The notes below the pieces were generated by a model. It was not told the DNA's origin. It saw nothing but the letters and a program-made list of their open reading frames with translations, and did no database searches. The position numbers were made by a program, and so were the translations under genes. A stretch of 64,000 nucleotides of DNA from Kutzneria kofuensis (GTDB taxonomy: Bacteria > Actinomycetota > Actinomycetes > Mycobacteriales > Pseudonocardiaceae): assembly GCF_014203355.1 (NCBI RefSeq), contig NZ_JACHIR010000001.1, forward strand, positions 7,442,038 through 7,506,037, in the 5' to 3' direction. Shown here piece by piece: positions 2,549-9,998 of this stretch; position 1 is the stretch's first letter, and every line of letters begins with the position of its first letter.

Positions 2549-5464
2549 TCAAGGAGCCAGGATCGCGCTGGCGTAGCTGCTCAACGCCTCCCGGTCGGGC
2601 TGCTGCGTCTTGGCGATCAGGCTGGCCACGTGTTTCTCCACGGTCCGGGGCGAGATGTGCAGCCGGTTGGCGATGGCCTTGTTGCCGAGCCGCTCCACCA
2701 GCAGCCGGAACACGTCGTACTCCCGCACGGTCACGCCGACGGACCGCAGCGCGCTGGGAACCTGCTCGGCGCCGACCCGCCGCTGCTGCACGGAGACGCC
2801 GACCTGACGCAGCAAAGCCCGGCAGGCGGAAGCCGTGCCGGTGACGCCGTTGCGGTGGAAGTACTCCTCGGCATTTCGTAGCCACGTGACCGGATCGCCC
2901 CACCCGTCGGCGTGCGCCGACTCGGCCACGAGCCGCAGACCCAGGTTGCGGGCCATCGGGAACGCGCCGCCGACCTGCTGCGCCGCTGCCATGGCGCACT
3001 CGGCCTGCTCGGCCTTGCCCTCACGGCCGTACAACACCGCCCCGGCCAGCTCGGTGAAGTGCCGGTTCCACCGCATCCCGCCGGCCGGCGTCGCGGTCAC
3101 CTGACGGTGCTGCGCCCAGTCGAAACGGCCCTCCAGCACGCCCAGCAACAGGTCCAGCCCGTGCCGACCGGCCAGATGAAAGGTCGTCGGGTTCTCCGCC
3201 TCCAACGTCAGCGCCTGCGCCAGCTCCCGGTCGGCCAGCTCCCGGTTCTCCTCCAGCAAAGCGCAGAAAACCCGGGCCAGACCGAAGGAAAGCGGCAGCT
3301 CCTGCGACCTTTCCCCGCCCCACTGCCGAAACTCGGCCAGGGCGTCGTCCATTTCCCGCCGCCGCCCCTGATGCGCGGCCAGGGTCGCCTTCGCCATCAG
3401 CGCGTACCGGACGATCGAACTGAGCTGCAGCCGGGTCGCGGACTCGCTGCAGGCGGCGATCCGCTCGGCCGCGAGGTCGAAGTCCCCGCCCAGCACGGTG
3501 TGCAGCGCGATGATGGCGTCCGCGTTGTACGCCATGGTGATCGCGCCGATCCGCAGCGCCTCCTGACGGGCCCGCTCCAGGCTGCCGATGTCCGATGTGG
3601 ACAGCCAGTCGATGCCGGCCAGCCGCATCATCGCGTACGCCCGCTGCATCGGCAGCTGGTGCTTCTCACCGAGCTGCTTGGCCTTCTCCAGGCAGTCCAT
3701 CGCCCGCGTGATGTCGTGTTCACGGGCGATGATGCCGAGCAGCTCCCACGCCTCGCACGCGACCACCGGCTGCTCGGACCGCTCCGCCGCGGCCACCGCC
3801 CGCCGGGCCAGTTCCTCCGCGCGAGTCAACCGATCCGGCCGGGGCGTGTCCAGTTCCAGGTACGCCGCGACGACATCCACCGGCGCGGTGTCCTCGTCCG
3901 CCGCGTTCGAGCCGAGCAACGCCCGCGCCGCAGCCACCTGCTCCGCGCCGTCCGTCGGCCGCCCGGCCAGGTATGCGACCTTCGCCAGCCGCGTGTGCAG
4001 GGCGGCCCGCCGGCGGGCGTCGAGACCGTCGCCGTCGAGGTCGGCCAGCTTGCCGGCGAGCTGGAACGCCCGTTCGAAGTGCCCGGCCTCGGCCAGCGCC
4101 GGCAGCAGCGACTCCAGGATGTCGGCGCGGATACCGGTGTCCAGCTTCCGGGTCAGCAGCCGATGGGCCTTGTCCAGCAACGTGATCGCGGACCCGGCGG
4201 CGCCGTCCCGCAACGCCCGGCGACCCGCCTCGGCGAACAGCCGACCCGCCGCCGCGTCCTCGCCGGCGTCCAAACGCAACGTCGCGACCAGCTGGCACCA
4301 GTGCCCCGGCAGCGCCGGATGCAGCTCCATCACGGCATCGGCGGCCTTCGACGACAGCTCCGCGCGGTCGATGGGCGTGAGCTGGCTGAGCAACGCCTCC
4401 GCGGTCAGCGGGTGCCGGAACGCGTACCAGTCCGGCGCCGGCTCGTCCGGCGTGACCAACTGCGCCGCGACGCCGGCGTGCAGATGGGAAAGCAGTCCAC
4501 GATCGTCGATGTCGGCGACCTTGCGTACCACCGAAAGTGGGAACCGGTGACCCAGCACCGCAGCCACCGAGAGTAGCATTCTGCCTTGCGGGCCAAGGCG
4601 ATCCGTGCGGTTGGCGATGCTGCGCACGACCGCCGCCGGCACCTCGGTGCGGAGCTGCCCGACCACCTGCCAGCCGTCGCCGCTGGGCACCAGCAGGCCG
4701 TTGTTCACCATGCCGTGCAACAGTTCCTCGACGATGAACGGGTTGCCGGCGCTGTCCACCCACAGCCGCTGCACGACCTCGTCGGCGACCTCGCCCCCGG
4801 CAACCTCCAGACAGGACGCCGCCATCGCCCGCACCTGCGCCCGGTCCAGCCGCCGCAGCTCCAGCAATGCCCCGGTGCGCCGCTGCTCGCTGGCCCGCGC
4901 CAGATCCAGCGCCGCGCCGGGCTCGCCGCGAATGGTGGCCAGCAGCATGATCGGCTGCAGGTCCAGGTTGTCCGTCAGGTATTCGACGACGGCGAGCGTC
5001 TCGGCGTCGGCGTCGTGCAGATCCTCAAGCACCAGCAGGCATCCGCGCCCGCGACCGGCGACCGACAGCAGCCGCAGCACCGCCTCGGCCAGCACCACCA
5101 GCGACACCGGCTGCGGCGGCGCGCCCGCGCCCCACTCCGGGATCAGCCGCCCCAGAACGGGACGGTACGGGCCGAGCTCGTTGTCGTCGAACGGCTCGCC
5201 ACCGCGGAAGAGCGAGAGCAGCGCCTCGGTCAGCGGCCGGAACGGGACCATCGGGCCGATCGTGCTGCCGCGCCCGCGCAGCACCCGCATGCCGGAGTCG
5301 AAGGCCCGGCCGGTGGTCATCGCGGCCAGCCGTGACTTGCCGATGCCGGCCTCGCCGACCAGGAACGCGGACCCGCCGCGCCCCGCCCTGGTTCCGGACA
5401 GCGCCCGCGTCAGCTCGGTCAGCTCGGCGTCGCGACCGACCAACAGTGGCGCGCGGGTCTGCAT
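2549..5464 (-). CDS. LAL-type LuxR regulator with N-terminal AAA/NACHT-like ATPase
   Basis: 971 residues, typical for large ATP-binding LuxR (LAL) regulators. Residues 37-44 are the Walker A motif GEAGIGKS, and LLVLEDLHDAD fits Walker B. A long helical-repeat middle section (roughly 400-860) is followed by a C-terminal GerE/LuxR helix-turn-helix (about 905-960; GNKAIANRLHISPRTVEKHV). LALs couple ATP and ligand or protein binding to transcription activation, often of secondary metabolism or sugar use. The nearest same-strand gene is the crotonase; the lanM operon lies upstream and is separated by a strong terminator. Target genes are not evident from the sequence. Confidence 0.93.
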   Translation of the reverse strand: MQTRAPLLVGRDAELTELTRALSGTRAGRGGSAFLVGEAGIGKSRLAAMTTGRAFDSGMRVLRGRGSTIGPMVPFRPLTEALLSLFRGGEPFDDNELGPYRPVLGRLIPEWGAGAPPQPVSLVVLAEAVLRLLSVAGRGRGCLLVLEDLHDADAETLAVVEYLTDNLDLQPIMLLATIRGEPGAALDLARASEQRRTGALLELRRLDRAQVRAMAASCLEVAGGEVADEVVQRLWVDSAGNPFIVEELLHGMVNNGLLVPSGDGWQVVGQLRTEVPAAVVRSIANRTDRLGPQGRMLLSVAAVLGHRFPLSVVRKVADIDDRGLLSHLHAGVAAQLVTPDEPAPDWYAFRHPLTAEALLSQLTPIDRAELSSKAADAVMELHPALPGHWCQLVATLRLDAGEDAAAGRLFAEAGRRALRDGAAGSAITLLDKAHRLLTRKLDTGIRADILESLLPALAEAGHFERAFQLAGKLADLDGDGLDARRRAALHTRLAKVAYLAGRPTDGAEQVAAARALLGSNAADEDTAPVDVVAAYLELDTPRPDRLTRAEELARRAVAAAERSEQPVVACEAWELLGIIAREHDITRAMDCLEKAKQLGEKHQLPMQRAYAMMRLAGIDWLSTSDIGSLERARQEALRIGAITMAYNADAIIALHTVLGGDFDLAAERIAACSESATRLQLSSIVRYALMAKATLAAHQGRRREMDDALAEFRQWGGERSQELPLSFGLARVFCALLEENRELADRELAQALTLEAENPTTFHLAGRHGLDLLLGVLEGRFDWAQHRQVTATPAGGMRWNRHFTELAGAVLYGREGKAEQAECAMAAAQQVGGAFPMARNLGLRLVAESAHADGWGDPVTWLRNAEEYFHRNGVTGTASACRALLRQVGVSVQQRRVGAEQVPSALRSVGVTVREYDVFRLLVERLGNKAIANRLHISPRTVEKHVASLIAKTQQPDREALSSYASAILAP

Positions 5465-5558
5465 GGAGCGACCCTAATCGCCTCAGCTGGGAAATCCAGA
5501 AGAACACCGCCGGAGTGACCGAATTGCGGGACGGTCTGCCCCAAGGTGTACGGCGAAT

Positions 5559-5587
5559 CCCCCCATCCGGGCACATCGGATGGGGGG
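5559..5587 (-). terminator. Strong hairpin terminator of the lanM-peptide unit
   Basis: CCCCCCATCCG (5559-5569) and CGGATGGGGGG (5577-5587) form a perfect 11-bp stem with a 7-base loop, 17 bases past the stop of the 69-residue peptide gene. It separates lanM and its peptide from the LAL regulator gene. No T-run follows, as is common in GC-rich actinobacteria. Confidence 0.75.
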
Positions 5588-5603
5588 ACCGGCGATCACG
5601 TGG

Positions 5604-5813
5604 TCAGACCGTGCCCGGCGCGCTGACCGTGGTGAACGGCATGGCCGTGACCGCCATGAAGGCGCTCATGCCCAGCGTCATGCCGGCCAGCGCCCGGGCC
5701 CGCGCCCCCGCGCGAGTTCTGGCGGTCACCACGATCTCGCCCGCCGGGTTCTCGCCACTGGCGGTGGCGAACTCGACGTCGGTGGCGGTCTCGTCGGCGG
5801 TGAAGTCGTTCAT
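5604..5813 (-). CDS. Cysteine-free 69-residue peptide, candidate LanM substrate
   Basis: A good ribosome site (GAGGGAG, 7-8 bases before the ATG at 5813) and a position 64 bases downstream of lanM on the same strand, before a strong terminator, support this as a real gene. The N-terminal half is acidic and Thr-rich (MNDFTADETATDVEF), a leader-like composition; then comes a basic segment (TARTRAGARARA) and a hydrophobic tail ending FTTVSAPGTV. It contains no Cys, so lanthionine rings cannot form within it; Thr/Ser dehydration would be possible. Alternatives are a small membrane or accessory peptide unrelated to LanM. Family not recognised. Confidence 0.6.
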   Translation of the reverse strand: MNDFTADETATDVEFATASGENPAGEIVVTARTRAGARARALAGMTLGMSAFMAVTAMPFTTVSAPGTV

Positions 5814-5877
5814 CCCAGTCTCCCTCAGTGAATTCCCTCAGTGGCACAACAGAAATCTGTTTCCCCAGGTGCAGGAA

Positions 5878-8800
5878 CTAGCGATGGTGCGAGACGTCGA
5901 GCAGGAGCACGGACGGCACCTGGTCGGCGAAGCCGAGGCGCAGCAAGCCGTAGCCGATGCCGGCCAGGCCGCTGAGCAGTCCGGGGGTGGGGACCTCGTT
6001 GGGCGTGCCGCAGCGCGCCCCGTACTGGTCGAGCGAGCCGAGCACCAGGCCCGCGCGGCGACCGACCGCCGCGGCGGCCCGCTCGTCGCCCGCGTGACCG
6101 AGCACGGTGAGCGCCTCGATGGCGCCGAGCTCACCGTGACACAGGCTCAGGTCACGCAGCGGCGGGTGTCCCGCCAGGGCGTCCACACAGCGGGCGAGCC
6201 CTTCGTCCGCACGGCCCATCCGCGCCAGCACCGCCCCCGGAACGCCGGCGCACCAGCCGTGATCGTCCAACCGTGCCGCGGGATCCCCGTCCGCGGCGAG
6301 ATACGTGGCGCCGACGGCCTCGTGCCGGTCGCTGCCGATCGCGGTCGCCAGCCGCAGCAGCGCCCAGCCGGCGCCGGCCGGGCCACGGGCGAAGCCGACC
6401 TGGTCGGTGGTGGCGTGCCGGCCCGTGGCCAGCCGGTCGGCGTAGCGGATGGCCAGCGTGCCGGCCGTGGACAGGCCGGTCTCGGCGTGCACGGCGAGCA
6501 TCGCGGCCAGCCCGCCGGCGAGGCCGTTGGCCACGTCGGCCGGCTCGTCGCCGGCCTCGGTCTCCAAGGCCGTGGCCAGCCGCACGGCAGTGGTCAGCCA
6601 GCCGAGGACCTCGGCGTCGTCGCCGAGCAGCCGGTGCAGGCGGGCCAGGGCGTAGCAGATGCCGCCGAGCCCGTGGAAGCCGCCGGAGCCGACCGCCAGC
6701 GCCAGGGCCAGGTCGTCGCCGAGCGCGTCGAGCAGCCGCGGGATCGGCTGGATCGCGCGCCGGGCCAGGTCGCCGTACCGCGGCGCGCCGGTCAGTTTCG
6801 CCAGCTGCGCAAGGAACAGCGCCAGGCCGGGGTAGCCGTTGGCGAGGCCGGCGCCCATCGGCAGCACGGTCCACTGCTTGTCGTCCACGAGCTCGAGGCC
6901 GAGCCAGTTCGTCCGGTCCGGGCCGGGAACCGCCCGCCCGACCAGCTCGTCGGCGATGCCGCAGGCCGCCGCGAGCAGCCGCTGCGGATCCGGCACGATC
7001 GTGGCCACCGAGCCCGGCAGCACGTCCGTGCCGCGGTGGTCGACCGGCCGCGGGCGGGTCGCGAACGAGGCTCGGATCAGCCACTCCTGGTTGTGCCGGT
7101 CCACCTCGCCCATGTCGGCGATCTTCGCCTCGGCCGCGGCCAGCCCGGACTCCGCGAGCAGGTTGGGCAGCCGGACCCCGGTGGCGGAGAAGACGTCCCG
7201 CGAGCCCACCCGGCAGGTGAACATCGGCACGTCACCGGCCCACAGGTCGGCGATCTCGTGCGGCACCAGCCGGCGGCGCATCGGGTCGTCCAGCGAGTCC
7301 GTCCACAGCAGGTCGAACACGCTGTCCCGGTCCAGCGCGTCGCGCAGCACGTCCGGGTGCGTCGACTCGTCCAGCAGCGTCGTGTACAGCTGCGTCGGGC
7401 GGGCCACGAAACGCAGCTCGGCCGTGGCACACGTGCGCAGCAGGGGCACGAACTCGGCCCGGTGCTCGACGATCGCGTCGTAGCCGGCCTGGAACCCGGT
7501 CAGCAACGCCGCCTGGTAGTCCCGCGGCTCGGCCTCCTGCTCGCCGAGCCGCGGCCGGTTGCGCCCGCCCCGCATCGCCACCGGCCGGCGCACCAGCCGC
7601 ATCGAGTCGGTGCCCGCGCCGTCCCAGCCCACCCCATCGGTCGGGAAGACGCCCTGGTCACCGCCCAGCCCGGAGACGTCGAACGAGCCGTTCTCGCCCA
7701 GCATCACCTGCGGCAGCAGGGCCGTGCGGAACACCGAGCGCACCAGCTCCTGCGCGGCCGGGTCGTGGCCGGTCGCCGTGTCCACCTGCATCGTCGGGTG
7801 GAACAGCGTCTCCACGTCCACCAGCACCGGCTGGTCCCCGGCGGCGATCAGGTTCTCGTAGTGCATGTCGCTGCCGTCGACGGCGTACAGCAGGGCCAGC
7901 AGCGCCCCCTGGCGGCGGTAGAACCGGCTCAGCCCGGTCACCTCGTCGCACGGGGCCGCCGACACGAACTCCTGCCAGCCGTAGCCGTCGCCGCACAGCA
8001 GCGCGACCTTGCGCAGGCCCAGGTCCGGCACCCGGCCGTTGAGCCAGTCCAGCATGTCGTTGAAGTGCGCGTGCAGGTCCAGCGGCCGGGGCTTGTAGAC
8101 GACGGTCCGGCCGTCGGAGAACGTCACCAGCGCGACCGACCGGCCGTGCTGGTGCGCGTCCCCGCCGGTGGACTCGATCTTGGCCAACGGGCCCGGGTCG
8201 CGGCCGTCCAGCAGCGTCTCGACGATCGCGTCCCGGTCGGAGTCGAGCCGCTCCAGCAGCTCCAGGTGCGCGGCGACGGCCTGCTGGCACGCCTGCGCCA
8301 GCAGCCGGGCCAGCACCGGGTACTCCGCGAACAGCGCGTCCAGGTCGGGGCGGCGGGCGAACTCCGCGAACCGCTCCGCCGGGGTGCGGCCGGTCAACTG
8401 CCCGCGGGCCCGGGCCCGGTTCAGCTCCAGCACCAGCGTGCGGGCCGCCAGCCGGGCCAGGCAGCGGCCGAGGCAGTGCACGAAACCGGCGGTCACGTCC
8501 GGGTTCGCGGTGCCGGCGACCGCCGCCTCCGCGATCTCGACCAGCGGCCGCAGCCCGGTGGCCAGCGCGCCGATCCAGTCGTCGCCGAACGCCTTGCGCC
8601 GGTCGCTCGCGCCCGTCAGCGCCGAGTCGACGAAGTCGGCCCAGCCCGGTCGGGCCACCCGCTTGGCCAGCGCGTCCGGGGCCTCCGCGAGCAGGCCGGT
8701 CAGGAGCTTCTCGTCCAGGCCCGCCGCCGCCAGCCGGCGCTCGAACCAGTCCGGGGCCAGCTCCTCGTGCGCCCGGCGCCACCGCTCCAGCCGCTCAAGC

Positions 8801-8895
8801 GCGTTCGCGGTGCCGCTGACCTGCTGCGACGGGCGGGGTAACCGCTCGTGCAGGGTCAGGCCCCCGGCCCACCAGAACGTCGCTGACTTCGTCAC
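5878..8895 (-). CDS. lanM: Class II lanthipeptide synthetase LanM (orphan)
   Basis: 1005 residues with both LanM halves. Dehydratase (DUF4135, about 100-480): GDAHQHGRS near 248, the ATP-binding lysine in VYKPRPL near 267, and DMHYENLIAAG near 343 followed by PVLVDVETLFHP. Cyclase (LanC-like, about 640-1000): all three zinc ligands are present, Cys in GWCAG (near 880) and Cys-His in LCHGELG (near 918), then TPGLLSGLAGIGYGL. LanM phosphorylates and eliminates Ser/Thr and adds Cys thiols. The GTG start at 8895 has no clear ribosome site, but WWAGGLTLHERL just after it matches the usual LanM N-terminus. No LanT transporter or protease is adjacent. Confidence 0.93.
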   Translation of the reverse strand: MTKSATFWWAGGLTLHERLPRPSQQVSGTANALERLERWRRAHEELAPDWFERRLAAAGLDEKLLTGLLAEAPDALAKRVARPGWADFVDSALTGASDRRKAFGDDWIGALATGLRPLVEIAEAAVAGTANPDVTAGFVHCLGRCLARLAARTLVLELNRARARGQLTGRTPAERFAEFARRPDLDALFAEYPVLARLLAQACQQAVAAHLELLERLDSDRDAIVETLLDGRDPGPLAKIESTGGDAHQHGRSVALVTFSDGRTVVYKPRPLDLHAHFNDMLDWLNGRVPDLGLRKVALLCGDGYGWQEFVSAAPCDEVTGLSRFYRRQGALLALLYAVDGSDMHYENLIAAGDQPVLVDVETLFHPTMQVDTATGHDPAAQELVRSVFRTALLPQVMLGENGSFDVSGLGGDQGVFPTDGVGWDGAGTDSMRLVRRPVAMRGGRNRPRLGEQEAEPRDYQAALLTGFQAGYDAIVEHRAEFVPLLRTCATAELRFVARPTQLYTTLLDESTHPDVLRDALDRDSVFDLLWTDSLDDPMRRRLVPHEIADLWAGDVPMFTCRVGSRDVFSATGVRLPNLLAESGLAAAEAKIADMGEVDRHNQEWLIRASFATRPRPVDHRGTDVLPGSVATIVPDPQRLLAAACGIADELVGRAVPGPDRTNWLGLELVDDKQWTVLPMGAGLANGYPGLALFLAQLAKLTGAPRYGDLARRAIQPIPRLLDALGDDLALALAVGSGGFHGLGGICYALARLHRLLGDDAEVLGWLTTAVRLATALETEAGDEPADVANGLAGGLAAMLAVHAETGLSTAGTLAIRYADRLATGRHATTDQVGFARGPAGAGWALLRLATAIGSDRHEAVGATYLAADGDPAARLDDHGWCAGVPGAVLARMGRADEGLARCVDALAGHPPLRDLSLCHGELGAIEALTVLGHAGDERAAAAVGRRAGLVLGSLDQYGARCGTPNEVPTPGLLSGLAGIGYGLLRLGFADQVPSVLLLDVSHHR

Positions 8896-8925: not shown

Positions 8926-8994
8926 CTACATGGGGGTGCGGCCCCCATATTCCCCACCCCCACTCCCGGGCCCACCGCCACCTGCGCTCCTCAT
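8926..8994 (-). CDS. 22-residue glycine-rich mini-ORF upstream of lanM
   Basis: An ATG at 8994 preceded by AGGAG at ideal spacing opens a 22-codon frame (begins MRSAGGGGPGSGGG, ends GGRTPM) that stops at 8926, 31 bases before the lanM start. It could be a leader peptide controlling lanM translation, or a chance frame in G-rich DNA. It has two Ser and one Thr but no Cys. The hairpin at 8930-8948 lies inside its end, which would tie its translation to local structure. Confidence 0.3.
   Translation of the reverse strand: MRSAGGGGPGSGGGEYGGRTPM
8930..8948. promoter_or_regulatory. Hairpin in the lanM 5' region
   Basis: ATGGGGG (8930-8936) and CCCCCAT (8942-8948) form a perfect 7-bp stem with loop TGCGG, about 35 bases before the lanM start and overlapping the 3' end of the Gly-rich mini-ORF. 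Because lanM lacks an obvious ribosome site, this structure may influence its translation (inference). Confidence 0.4.
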
Positions 8995-9101: not shown

Positions 9102-9998
9102 TCAGGCGTTCTGGGCTCCGTTGTAGACCTGCCACGCGGCGTCCCGGTAGTAGGCGAAGTACGAGTCGCCCCAGCTGCCGAAGAAGCTGGCGGTCTGCAT
9201 CGCCGAGCCGTCGCCCTGGTAGTTGACGATGAACGCGCCGCCGCTGGCCCCGCCGGACAGCCCGATGCAGTTGGGGATCTGCACGCCGCCCTGCGGCCCG
9301 TCGTACGGCTGCCCCTCGCACCAGACGGCGTAGTCCTTGTCGCCCGGGATGCCGATGCCGTGCGCGTAGTTGTTGCTCGGCTGGTTGAAGCCGATGCCGG
9401 AGCTGCCGACCGCGTCCTGCACGTGCCGGTTGCCGTTGCCGCCGGTGCTCAGCACGATGAACGCGTTGTCCCCGCCGGGGCTGGTGTCGTCGATCCGCCA
9501 GCCCATCGACCGCCAGTTCCACCAGCCGTAGGGGGCGCTGCCCCGGTTGTAGGACGGCGCGAAGCGGAAGTTGTTGTAGGTCTGGCCGGTGGCGATGTCC
9601 ATCACGCAGTGCCGGGCCGTGGCGATCACGTCCCGGTTGTTGCTGGTCACCACGTTCGCGGAGCAGAGGTAGTCGCCCTTGCCCGGCACGGAGAACACCA
9701 GCCGGCCGATGGTCGTCCAGACGCTGCTCATCGGTTGGAAGCCGCTGGGTTCGGTGGCGTGGACGAACTTCGGCGCGCCCGTCTGCGGCTGTTCGTTGCT
9801 CTGCACGGCCTTCGGCGCCGGCATCGGTTTGGCCTGCGCGAGGCGTTGTGGCGTCCAGTACTCGTCGAGTGCTTCTGCGGACACGGTGTTGGTGGCGGTG
9901 GCCACCGCGGCGTGCGCGGGAGCGACGGTGACCAGCAGGGACAGTGCGGCGGTGAGCAGGATCGCGGCGGTTCTGTGCACGATGTCAACCCCGTTCAT
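9102..9998 (-). CDS. Secreted trypsin-like serine protease (S1 family)
   Basis: 298 residues from ATG 9998, with a Sec signal peptide (AAILLTAALSLLVTVAPAHA) and a short pro-region before a chymotrypsin-fold domain. Catalytic triad residues are visible: His in ATARHCV (near 129), Asp in GGDNAF (near 177) and Ser in SGGASGGAF (near 251). Two cysteine pairs could form disulfides. Extracellular protein digestion is the likely role. An in-frame GTG a few codons in (IVHRT) is a possible alternative start. Upstream is a divergent gene with a TGTCCG palindrome between them. Confidence 0.9.
   Translation of the reverse strand: MNGVDIVHRTAAILLTAALSLLVTVAPAHAAVATATNTVSAEALDEYWTPQRLAQAKPMPAPKAVQSNEQPQTGAPKFVHATEPSGFQPMSSVWTTIGRLVFSVPGKGDYLCSANVVTSNNRDVIATARHCVMDIATGQTYNNFRFAPSYNRGSAPYGWWNWRSMGWRIDDTSPGGDNAFIVLSTGGNGNRHVQDAVGSSGIGFNQPSNNYAHGIGIPGDKDYAVWCEGQPYDGPQGGVQIPNCIGLSGGASGGAFIVNYQGDGSAMQTASFFGSWGDSYFAYYRDAAWQVYNGAQNA

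Follow-up and report, generated by a model that had tools for sequence, protein, structure and literature searches.

Conservation of a lanM–peptide–regulator cassette of Kutzneria kofuensis and a possible ring-free product of its cysteine-free peptide

We examined a class II lanthipeptide synthetase gene (lanM) in a 64,000-nucleotide stretch of the 10.4 Mb assembly of the soil bacterium Kutzneria kofuensis (GCF_014203355.1, contig NZ_JACHIR010000001.1, positions 7,442,038 to 7,506,037 of the forward strand; hereafter the window). The gene was found to belong to a conserved cassette, in which it is followed by a small gene for a cysteine-free peptide and by a gene for a regulator resembling the signal transduction ATPases with numerous domains (STAND). 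We consider it rather probable that the locus forms a dedicated LanM cassette, probably autoregulated, whose product is a linear peptide with dehydrobutyrine (Dhb) and dehydroalanine (Dha) and no lanthionine ring. In the proposed mechanism, LanM would bind the PAGE-containing N-terminal part of its own small precursor and would phosphorylate and eliminate Ser and Thr in the C-terminal T-T-V-S-A-P segment; because the peptide lacks Cys, the resulting Dhb/Dha peptide would remain linear. The neighbouring regulator, of the LAL type (large ATP-binding regulators of the LuxR family), would control the operon, probably through a palindrome 5' of lanM. The features are listed here in window coordinates.

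5878..8895, minus strand: lanM, GTG start, encoding a class II lanthipeptide synthetase of 1005 aa with intact dehydratase residues and zinc ligands
5604..5813, minus strand: probable Cys-free precursor peptide, 69 aa, with a homologue 3' of 140 of 144 distinct LanM relatives
2549..5464, minus strand: LAL-type regulator, 971 aa, with AAA_16 ATPase, long helical region and LuxR helix-turn-helix (HTH), STAND-like
8930..8948, no strand: palindrome ATGGGGG-N5-CCCCCAT, candidate operator, 35-53 nt 5' of the lanM start codon
5613..5633, minus strand: putative C-terminal core TTVSAPG, three dehydratable residues
5736..5750, minus strand: leader motif NPAGE (HPAGE, HPAGQ, DPAGG, DAAGG and others in relatives)
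5820..5826, minus strand: GAGGGAG, ribosome-binding-like, 6 nt before the peptide ATG
6250..6252, minus strand: LanM zinc ligand Cys882
6136..6141, minus strand: LanM zinc ligands Cys919 and His920

The original prediction had described a full LanM followed by a Cys-free 69-residue peptide with a good ribosome site, and all of this was confirmed, the peptide gene lying 64 nt downstream of lanM. It had also called the LanM an orphan, having overlooked both the regulator and the palindrome, and this description proved wrong. LanM relatives were sought in 200 genomes of the family, 394 of the class, 392 of the genus of genome G504 (with a contig matching Streptomyces sp. XM4193), and a named genome collection in which the close relatives are Kutzneria species, members of the Pseudonocardiaceae. 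They were encountered in 77 of the family genomes (E <= 1e-40, other LanMs included), 9 of the class genomes (E <= 1e-100), 65 genomes of the G504 genus (E <= 1e-150) and 66 loci of the named collection, 11 of which (L232-L242) were left out as gene calling yielded no LanM. The counts cover the fetched sequences among the matches listed, with LanMs shorter than 700 aa left out and identical or contained ones removed (182 to 168), and a threshold of at least 550 bits against the window LanM gave 144 distinct relatives. Gene starts were taken from our own gene caller. The loci and pairs are related to one another, so that the counts for Cys and zinc, tree, co-evolution, dN/dS and palindrome given below are not independent.

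A homologue of the peptide was found directly 3' of LanM in 140 of the 144 relatives (139 by profile and one, L175, by eye), so that the refuting check proposed in the original prediction, a search for homologous LanM genes lacking any conserved downstream peptide, did not overturn the pairing. The four remaining LanMs were L043, which has Ns inside the gene, L129 and L174, which lie at contig ends, and L131, whose LanM is in two pieces with the regulator 40 nt on. With the window peptide as a lone query, 42 downstream frames scored above 12 bits, against a maximum of 7.8 among 2193 upstream and antisense control frames; with an iterated profile, which contains the members that it then scores, members reached at least 24.5 bits and controls at most 11.8. 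These sequence comparisons strongly support the pairing of LanM with this peptide family. The window peptide is 96, 93 and 81% identical to its counterparts in three same-genus genomes, has homologues in other genera and, in its closest pair, shows dN 0.020 and dS 0.098 from only 8 changes, which together rule out a chance open reading frame. It contains 11 Thr and 3 Ser, lacks Cys, Lys, His, Trp and Tyr, and is hydrophobic in its C-terminal half; of the Ser/Thr and Cys that mark a lanthipeptide precursor core, only the former are present. A different Cys-free core type was noted in L089, L090 and L169, whose peptides have DLP(W/F)TTM and a few further residues at their end in place of TTVSAP.

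The third gene of the cassette is nearly as constant, a regulator of about 970 aa lying downstream on the same strand within 2.5 kb in 142 of 149 LanM loci. The other seven comprise three loci at a contig end, the outgroup L093, two with the regulator nearby on the opposite strand, and one with it upstream. The window regulator matches AAA_16 at its N-terminus (84.2 bits) and the GerE HTH at its C-terminus (36 bits), both above cut-offs, as in LAL proteins. Its AF2 model (pLDDT 89.3, pTM 0.70) has an AAA-type N-terminus, a long all-helical middle and an HTH; the top Foldseek match was the STAND-TPR ATPase 6mfv (E 1e-12), but with TM 0.29/0.40 and rmsd 23, and the tenth was the maltose-system structure 8bob. 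We found that LanM and regulator identities are closely correlated (Mantel r 0.918 for 64 loci; best of 500 permutations 0.139), and in genomes with several cassettes the regulator was nearer to the regulator of the LanM's closest foreign relative than to its own-genome paralogue in 19 of 19 cases. By these sequence measures, LanM and regulator co-evolve.

The neighbourhood otherwise holds little in common. Among 1012 called proteins of at least 60 aa within 8 kb of 80 loci, the regulator alone recurred in nearly all (79 loci); the next clusters covered 22 and 21 loci and consisted, by eye, of AMP-ligase or NRPS-like proteins at varied places and SARP-like regulators. A conserved accessory enzyme was therefore rejected.

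We sought to establish whether the window LanM carries the residues of an active enzyme. It scores 729.5 bits against TIGR03897 (cut-off 304), has the DUF4135 dehydratase fused to LANC_like that defines the LanM class, matches the solved LicM2 and CylM, and is the sole DUF4135 protein of the genome. Alignment with CylM placed window residues D246, H248, K268, D343 and H345 on CylM D252, H254, K274, D347 and H349, and N348, D360, R495 and T501 on N352, D364, R506 and T512; the roles of the CylM residues in phosphorylation and elimination are given in excerpts of PMC4550811. The zinc ligands C882, C919 and H920 are likewise all present (CCH), so that the intact dehydratase and cyclase sites of the original prediction were upheld. 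Across the 143 cassette LanMs, H345, N348, D360 and R495 never vary, and D343 is shared by 142, the remaining one having a gap.

We then assessed tail Cys, counted in the last 25 residues (an earlier count used the last 30), in the 143 loci with a peptide, which include the outgroup L093 as one of the Cys-tail loci. The tail is Cys-free in 108 loci and contains Cys in 35. Cys-free partners, which the original prediction had called rare beside full LanM enzymes among described lanthipeptides, are the majority in this LanM branch. The zinc site is intact in all 35 Cys-tail loci and lost in 24 of the 108 Cys-free ones. In one Cys-tail enzyme, that of L055, the third ligand is Cys and not His, a CCC pattern that an excerpt of PMC11251773 gives for prochlorosin-like systems.

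The 24 zinc-lost loci derive from the G504 genus, named Streptomyces and Streptacidiphilus. In a reduced tree (rows more than 90% identical or shorter than 800 aa left out; quick searches, long branches), 18 of these are united in a single clade (SH-aLRT 100) that falls within Cys-free lineages, with an uncertain history of 5-11 Cys changes. Four loci with a Cys-free tail and an intact zinc site, L148, L149, L153 and L161, also group with this clade. C882 and C919 are replaced in 24 of 24 zinc-lost LanMs and H920 in 14; the His of HGxxG is Asp in 17, a position that is variable in zinc-intact loci too (His in 63 of 84 Cys-free and 19 of 35 Cys-tail loci). The clade keeps the dehydratase residues, K268 and T501 included, with one partial sequence, and its peptides carry a Cys-free DTSVSxP tail in 24 of 24.

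For pairs sharing 0.70-0.80 dehydratase identity, the mean cyclase identity was 0.64-0.67 between zinc-lost loci (103 pairs), as against 0.81 between Cys-free loci with an intact zinc site (44) and 0.72-0.75 for five pairs with Cys tails, while at 0.60-0.65 the gap was small (0.56 versus 0.61 and 0.59). Median cyclase dN/dS was 0.396 in zinc-lost pairs (44) versus 0.202 in zinc-intact pairs (331), and median dehydratase dN/dS was 0.245 versus 0.265. This pattern indicates that the zinc-lost clade retains the dehydration machinery and that its cyclase domain is relaxed, not abandoned. Because the dehydratase residues persist and the zinc site has disappeared from one clade with a similar tail, the dehydrated, ring-free product, one of the options raised in the original prediction, is favoured, with the chemistry itself put forward as a proposal.

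The reading further depends on the peptide being the substrate, which is probable because Cys cores occupy the corresponding position in sister cassettes and a basal leader passes a family cut-off. The sister-cassette peptides share the layout of the window peptide, and their tail is [TS]TCC in 16 of 35 Cys-tail loci. In basal cassettes the precursor has a long mersacidin/lichenicidin leader, that of L070 scoring 25.5 against a TIGR03898 cut-off of 23.5 and that of L068 falling short at 22.3. It was noted that L068, on the basal branch of the cassette tree, has two tandem precursor genes 3' of lanM, with WKDPDAR leaders and Cys in an SVSxPC core. Near its end L068 reads SVSAPCLGYG, where the window reads TVSAPGTV, and a single Cys-to-Gly change at the matching place would be enough to remove the ring partner.

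The regulator may act through the palindrome upstream of lanM, whose consensus is AATnTGGGGG-N5-CCCCCATGTG and which was first spotted by eye in Lentzea and Saccharothrix loci that stay in the total count. With an inner spacing of 4-8 it was found in 67 of 139 lanM upstream regions, compared with 0 of 417 control windows (350-nt windows, largely coding, drawn at random from those loci) and 0 of 132 regions preceding the regulator gene. The starts of TGGGG and CCCCA are separated by 12 nt in 65 of the 139 regions, and any other distance from 5 to 30 occurs in at most one region. By class, the palindrome was present in 17 of 23 zinc-lost, 48 of 82 zinc-intact Cys-free and 2 of 34 Cys-tail loci. 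The whole window genome contains the exact core only once. With two mismatches allowed, a match lies upstream of lanM in 30 of 30 cassette genomes, hand-picked among the carriers, and further sites occur elsewhere in four of them (G000, G001, G013 and G111; list read by eye). A one-mismatch copy in the window's own genome, L247:5292-5315 (contig C3), stands shortly before a gene at 5347-6279 with weak HTH matches. Some cassettes (L057, L076) have, next to lanM, proteins that start like the product of this gene (MALRDxGF). A related palindrome seen in two genomes of a single genus (L249:4828-4851 and L250:4846-4869) overlaps the end of another AAA/LuxR-like gene of about 913 aa.

Several observations weigh against the proposed linear product and its regulation. 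The window peptide matches no Pfam or TIGR family and has no TIGR03898 leader match. Among 14 cassette peptides scanned, five match TIGR03898 and only L070 exceeds the cut-off; apart from L068, three others match at 14-17 bits, and nine, the window's included, give no match. A profile bridge from ordinary LanM precursors to the cassette peptide failed when members were left out, with scores at control level. In the enzyme, K268 is Arg or Gln in 30 of the 143 cassette LanMs and T501 is Ser in 16, all of these substitutions occurring where the zinc site is intact (119 loci). Each of the 24 zinc-lost peptides has a single conserved Cys in the block that precedes its tail, as in GRNRACARARVLAG; excerpts of PMC10604976 describe class III cyclases that form rings without zinc, so a metal-independent ring is possible in that clade. 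Cys-tail cassettes have almost no palindrome (2 of 34) despite having the regulator, and the protein of the L247 gene, not the cassette regulator, could be the palindrome binder. Finally, outside the zinc-lost clade all three zinc ligands persist in every Cys-free-tail locus (84 of 84), that of the window among them; together with the low cyclase dN/dS of zinc-intact pairs, this is difficult to reconcile with an enzyme that never handles a thiol.

This last point speaks for an external thiol, a reading that we regard as unlikely. LanM would dehydrate the TTVS residues, and the LanC domain would then add a small cellular thiol (for example mycothiol, the actinobacterial thiol, or cysteine) or the Cys of another protein. 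The persistence of zinc ligands and the zinc-intact cyclase dN/dS of 0.202 are consistent with it, but one clade keeps a like tail without the zinc site, and we know of no LanM that adds an external thiol. A precedent outside bacteria is human LanCL1, which according to excerpts of PMC9934072 adds glutathione to Dhb/Dha intermolecularly. The original prediction had raised cyclisation by another nucleophile more generally. Rings through Lys or His are excluded within the window peptide, which has neither; 29 of the 84 Cys-free-tail, zinc-intact peptides have Cys, Lys or His in their last 32 residues (none in the other 55), and for the window the external thiol is what remains of that idea.

The peptide may alternatively be an accessory, immunity or regulator-binding peptide, with LanM acting on some other substrate, which appears improbable. 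Its hydrophobic C-terminal half, its lack of a match to any LanA family and the regulator that nearly always adjoins it fit such a role, but the Cys tails of sister cassettes and the L070 leader match do not, and the genome offers no other candidate of this kind.

A Cys-bearing substrate encoded elsewhere, with the downstream peptide as a decayed precursor, was also among the options of the original prediction and is now disfavoured to the point of being very improbable. Unclustered lanthipeptide proteases, reported in other systems (PMC8960859), provide a parallel, and an unrelated substrate would escape the searches used. When the 10.4 Mb genome was searched by profile, however, nothing else related to the peptide rose above noise, and no leader of the mersacidin type exceeded the TIGR03898 cut-off, so that a second substrate of this kind was rejected; conservation of the peptide across genera is also unlike decay. 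We hold it equally hard to believe that LanM is degenerate or a kinase only, leaving the peptide phosphorylated or unmodified: the LanM-like CA_C0082 has no known biosynthetic role in excerpts of PMC10301443, but its homologues lack the dehydratase residues, whereas here the elimination residue R495 is present in 143 of 143 LanMs and T501 in 127 (Ser in the rest), with median dehydratase dN/dS of 0.245-0.265.

If the linear Dhb/Dha peptide is indeed the product, an intriguing question is what it would be for. STAND proteins with TPR-like superhelices, of which the all-helical middle of the regulator may be an example, sense ligands, and because of this the modified peptide might serve as the ligand of the regulator. 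We tentatively propose, as a doubtful but attractive extension, a signalling circuit based on a ribosomally synthesized and post-translationally modified peptide, in which LanM would turn the Cys-free peptide into a Dhb/Dha ligand for the co-evolving STAND regulator, making this a lanthionine-free class II branch for sensing and not for antibiotics. The regulator would act at nearly one operator per genome, that of its own operon. No transporter is fixed in the unit. In agreement with the original prediction, the locus has no LanT; a C39 (LanT-type) peptidase inside the window was rejected, as the sole one of the genome lies about 1 Mb away.

LanM enzymes are generally taken as lanthionine makers, and here most members of one branch lack tail Cys and one clade lacks the zinc site. 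Zinc-intact and zinc-lost natural enzymes of one family would permit a direct test of the role of the LanC domain where no ring-forming thiol is present, and the nearly fixed regulator and the palindrome offer a handle for inducing the operon and identifying its product.

Additional features were noted around the cassette. An inverted repeat at 5559-5587, between the peptide and regulator genes, has arms C6AT and ATG6, a half-site order opposite to that of the lanM palindrome, and might serve as a terminator or as another binding site. A search for sigma-70 promoters and terminators did no better than on shuffled sequence. Just 5' of lanM, at 9102-9998 on the minus strand, lies a gene for a probable secreted serine-protease-like protein without a Pfam match, labelled from its GGASGG and ARHC motifs, which we take to be those of such enzymes. 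This gene type also occurs near lanM in four further same-genus loci (L039, L040, L041 and L043) and is not among the 14 largest neighbour-protein clusters. Two Cys-tail cassettes, L055 and L059, share a divergent cluster whose genes, named by eye, encode an adenylation-like enzyme, a carrier protein, tryptophan-synthesis-like enzymes and an acyl-CoA dehydrogenase-like protein.

Parts of this picture are already known from published work, namely Cys-lacking precursors beside LanM and a DUF4135 enzyme that makes dehydroamino acids without lanthionine. In the published excerpts cited here, no description was found of the trio of lanM, peptide and STAND genes, of the clade without a zinc site or of the palindrome, and Zhang 2015 (AEM 81:4339) may already describe the cassette. 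Compared with class II systems with mersacidin/lichenicidin leaders (TIGR03898; LicM2, CylM), the window shares the LanM architecture and the catalytic and zinc residues, and the basal precursor of L070 passes their leader cut-off; unlike them, it has a downstream precursor with a short leader and a Cys-free peptide, no C39 LanT in the window, and an adjoining STAND-like regulator. Clusters with both LanM and LanKC are described with Cys-less LanM-associated precursors in excerpts of PMC7268733 (citing Zhang 2015), a large survey that set these precursors aside, and subfamily C in those of PMC11251773 places LanM beside a Cys-less precursor in Streptomyces. These clusters share that arrangement with the window but also hold a class III LanKC, which was absent from 15 window proteins scanned, and the regulator trio does not appear in the excerpted descriptions.

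CcaM, or LanMbC, of the dehydrazoles (excerpts of PMC10676384) belongs to the DUF4135 enzymes, yields a product with dehydroamino acids but without lanthionine, and has a zinc-less cyclase domain resembling that of the zinc-lost clade. LanMbC differs in that it follows a YcaO enzyme and takes azole peptides as substrate, and in that it lacks the zinc ligands, which the window LanM retains (CCH); a Pfam scan of 15 proteins, from some of the open reading frames in the window's first 19.5 kb, gave no YcaO. CA_C0082, as excerpted from PMC10301443, is a LanM-related protein without a zinc site that is linked to a regulatory system; it lacks the dehydratase residues and part of that domain, and no lanthipeptide genes are described alongside it. 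The window regulator, for its part, shares AAA_16 and the LuxR HTH with LAL and MalT-like STAND regulators and differs from them in being tied to a LanM cassette.

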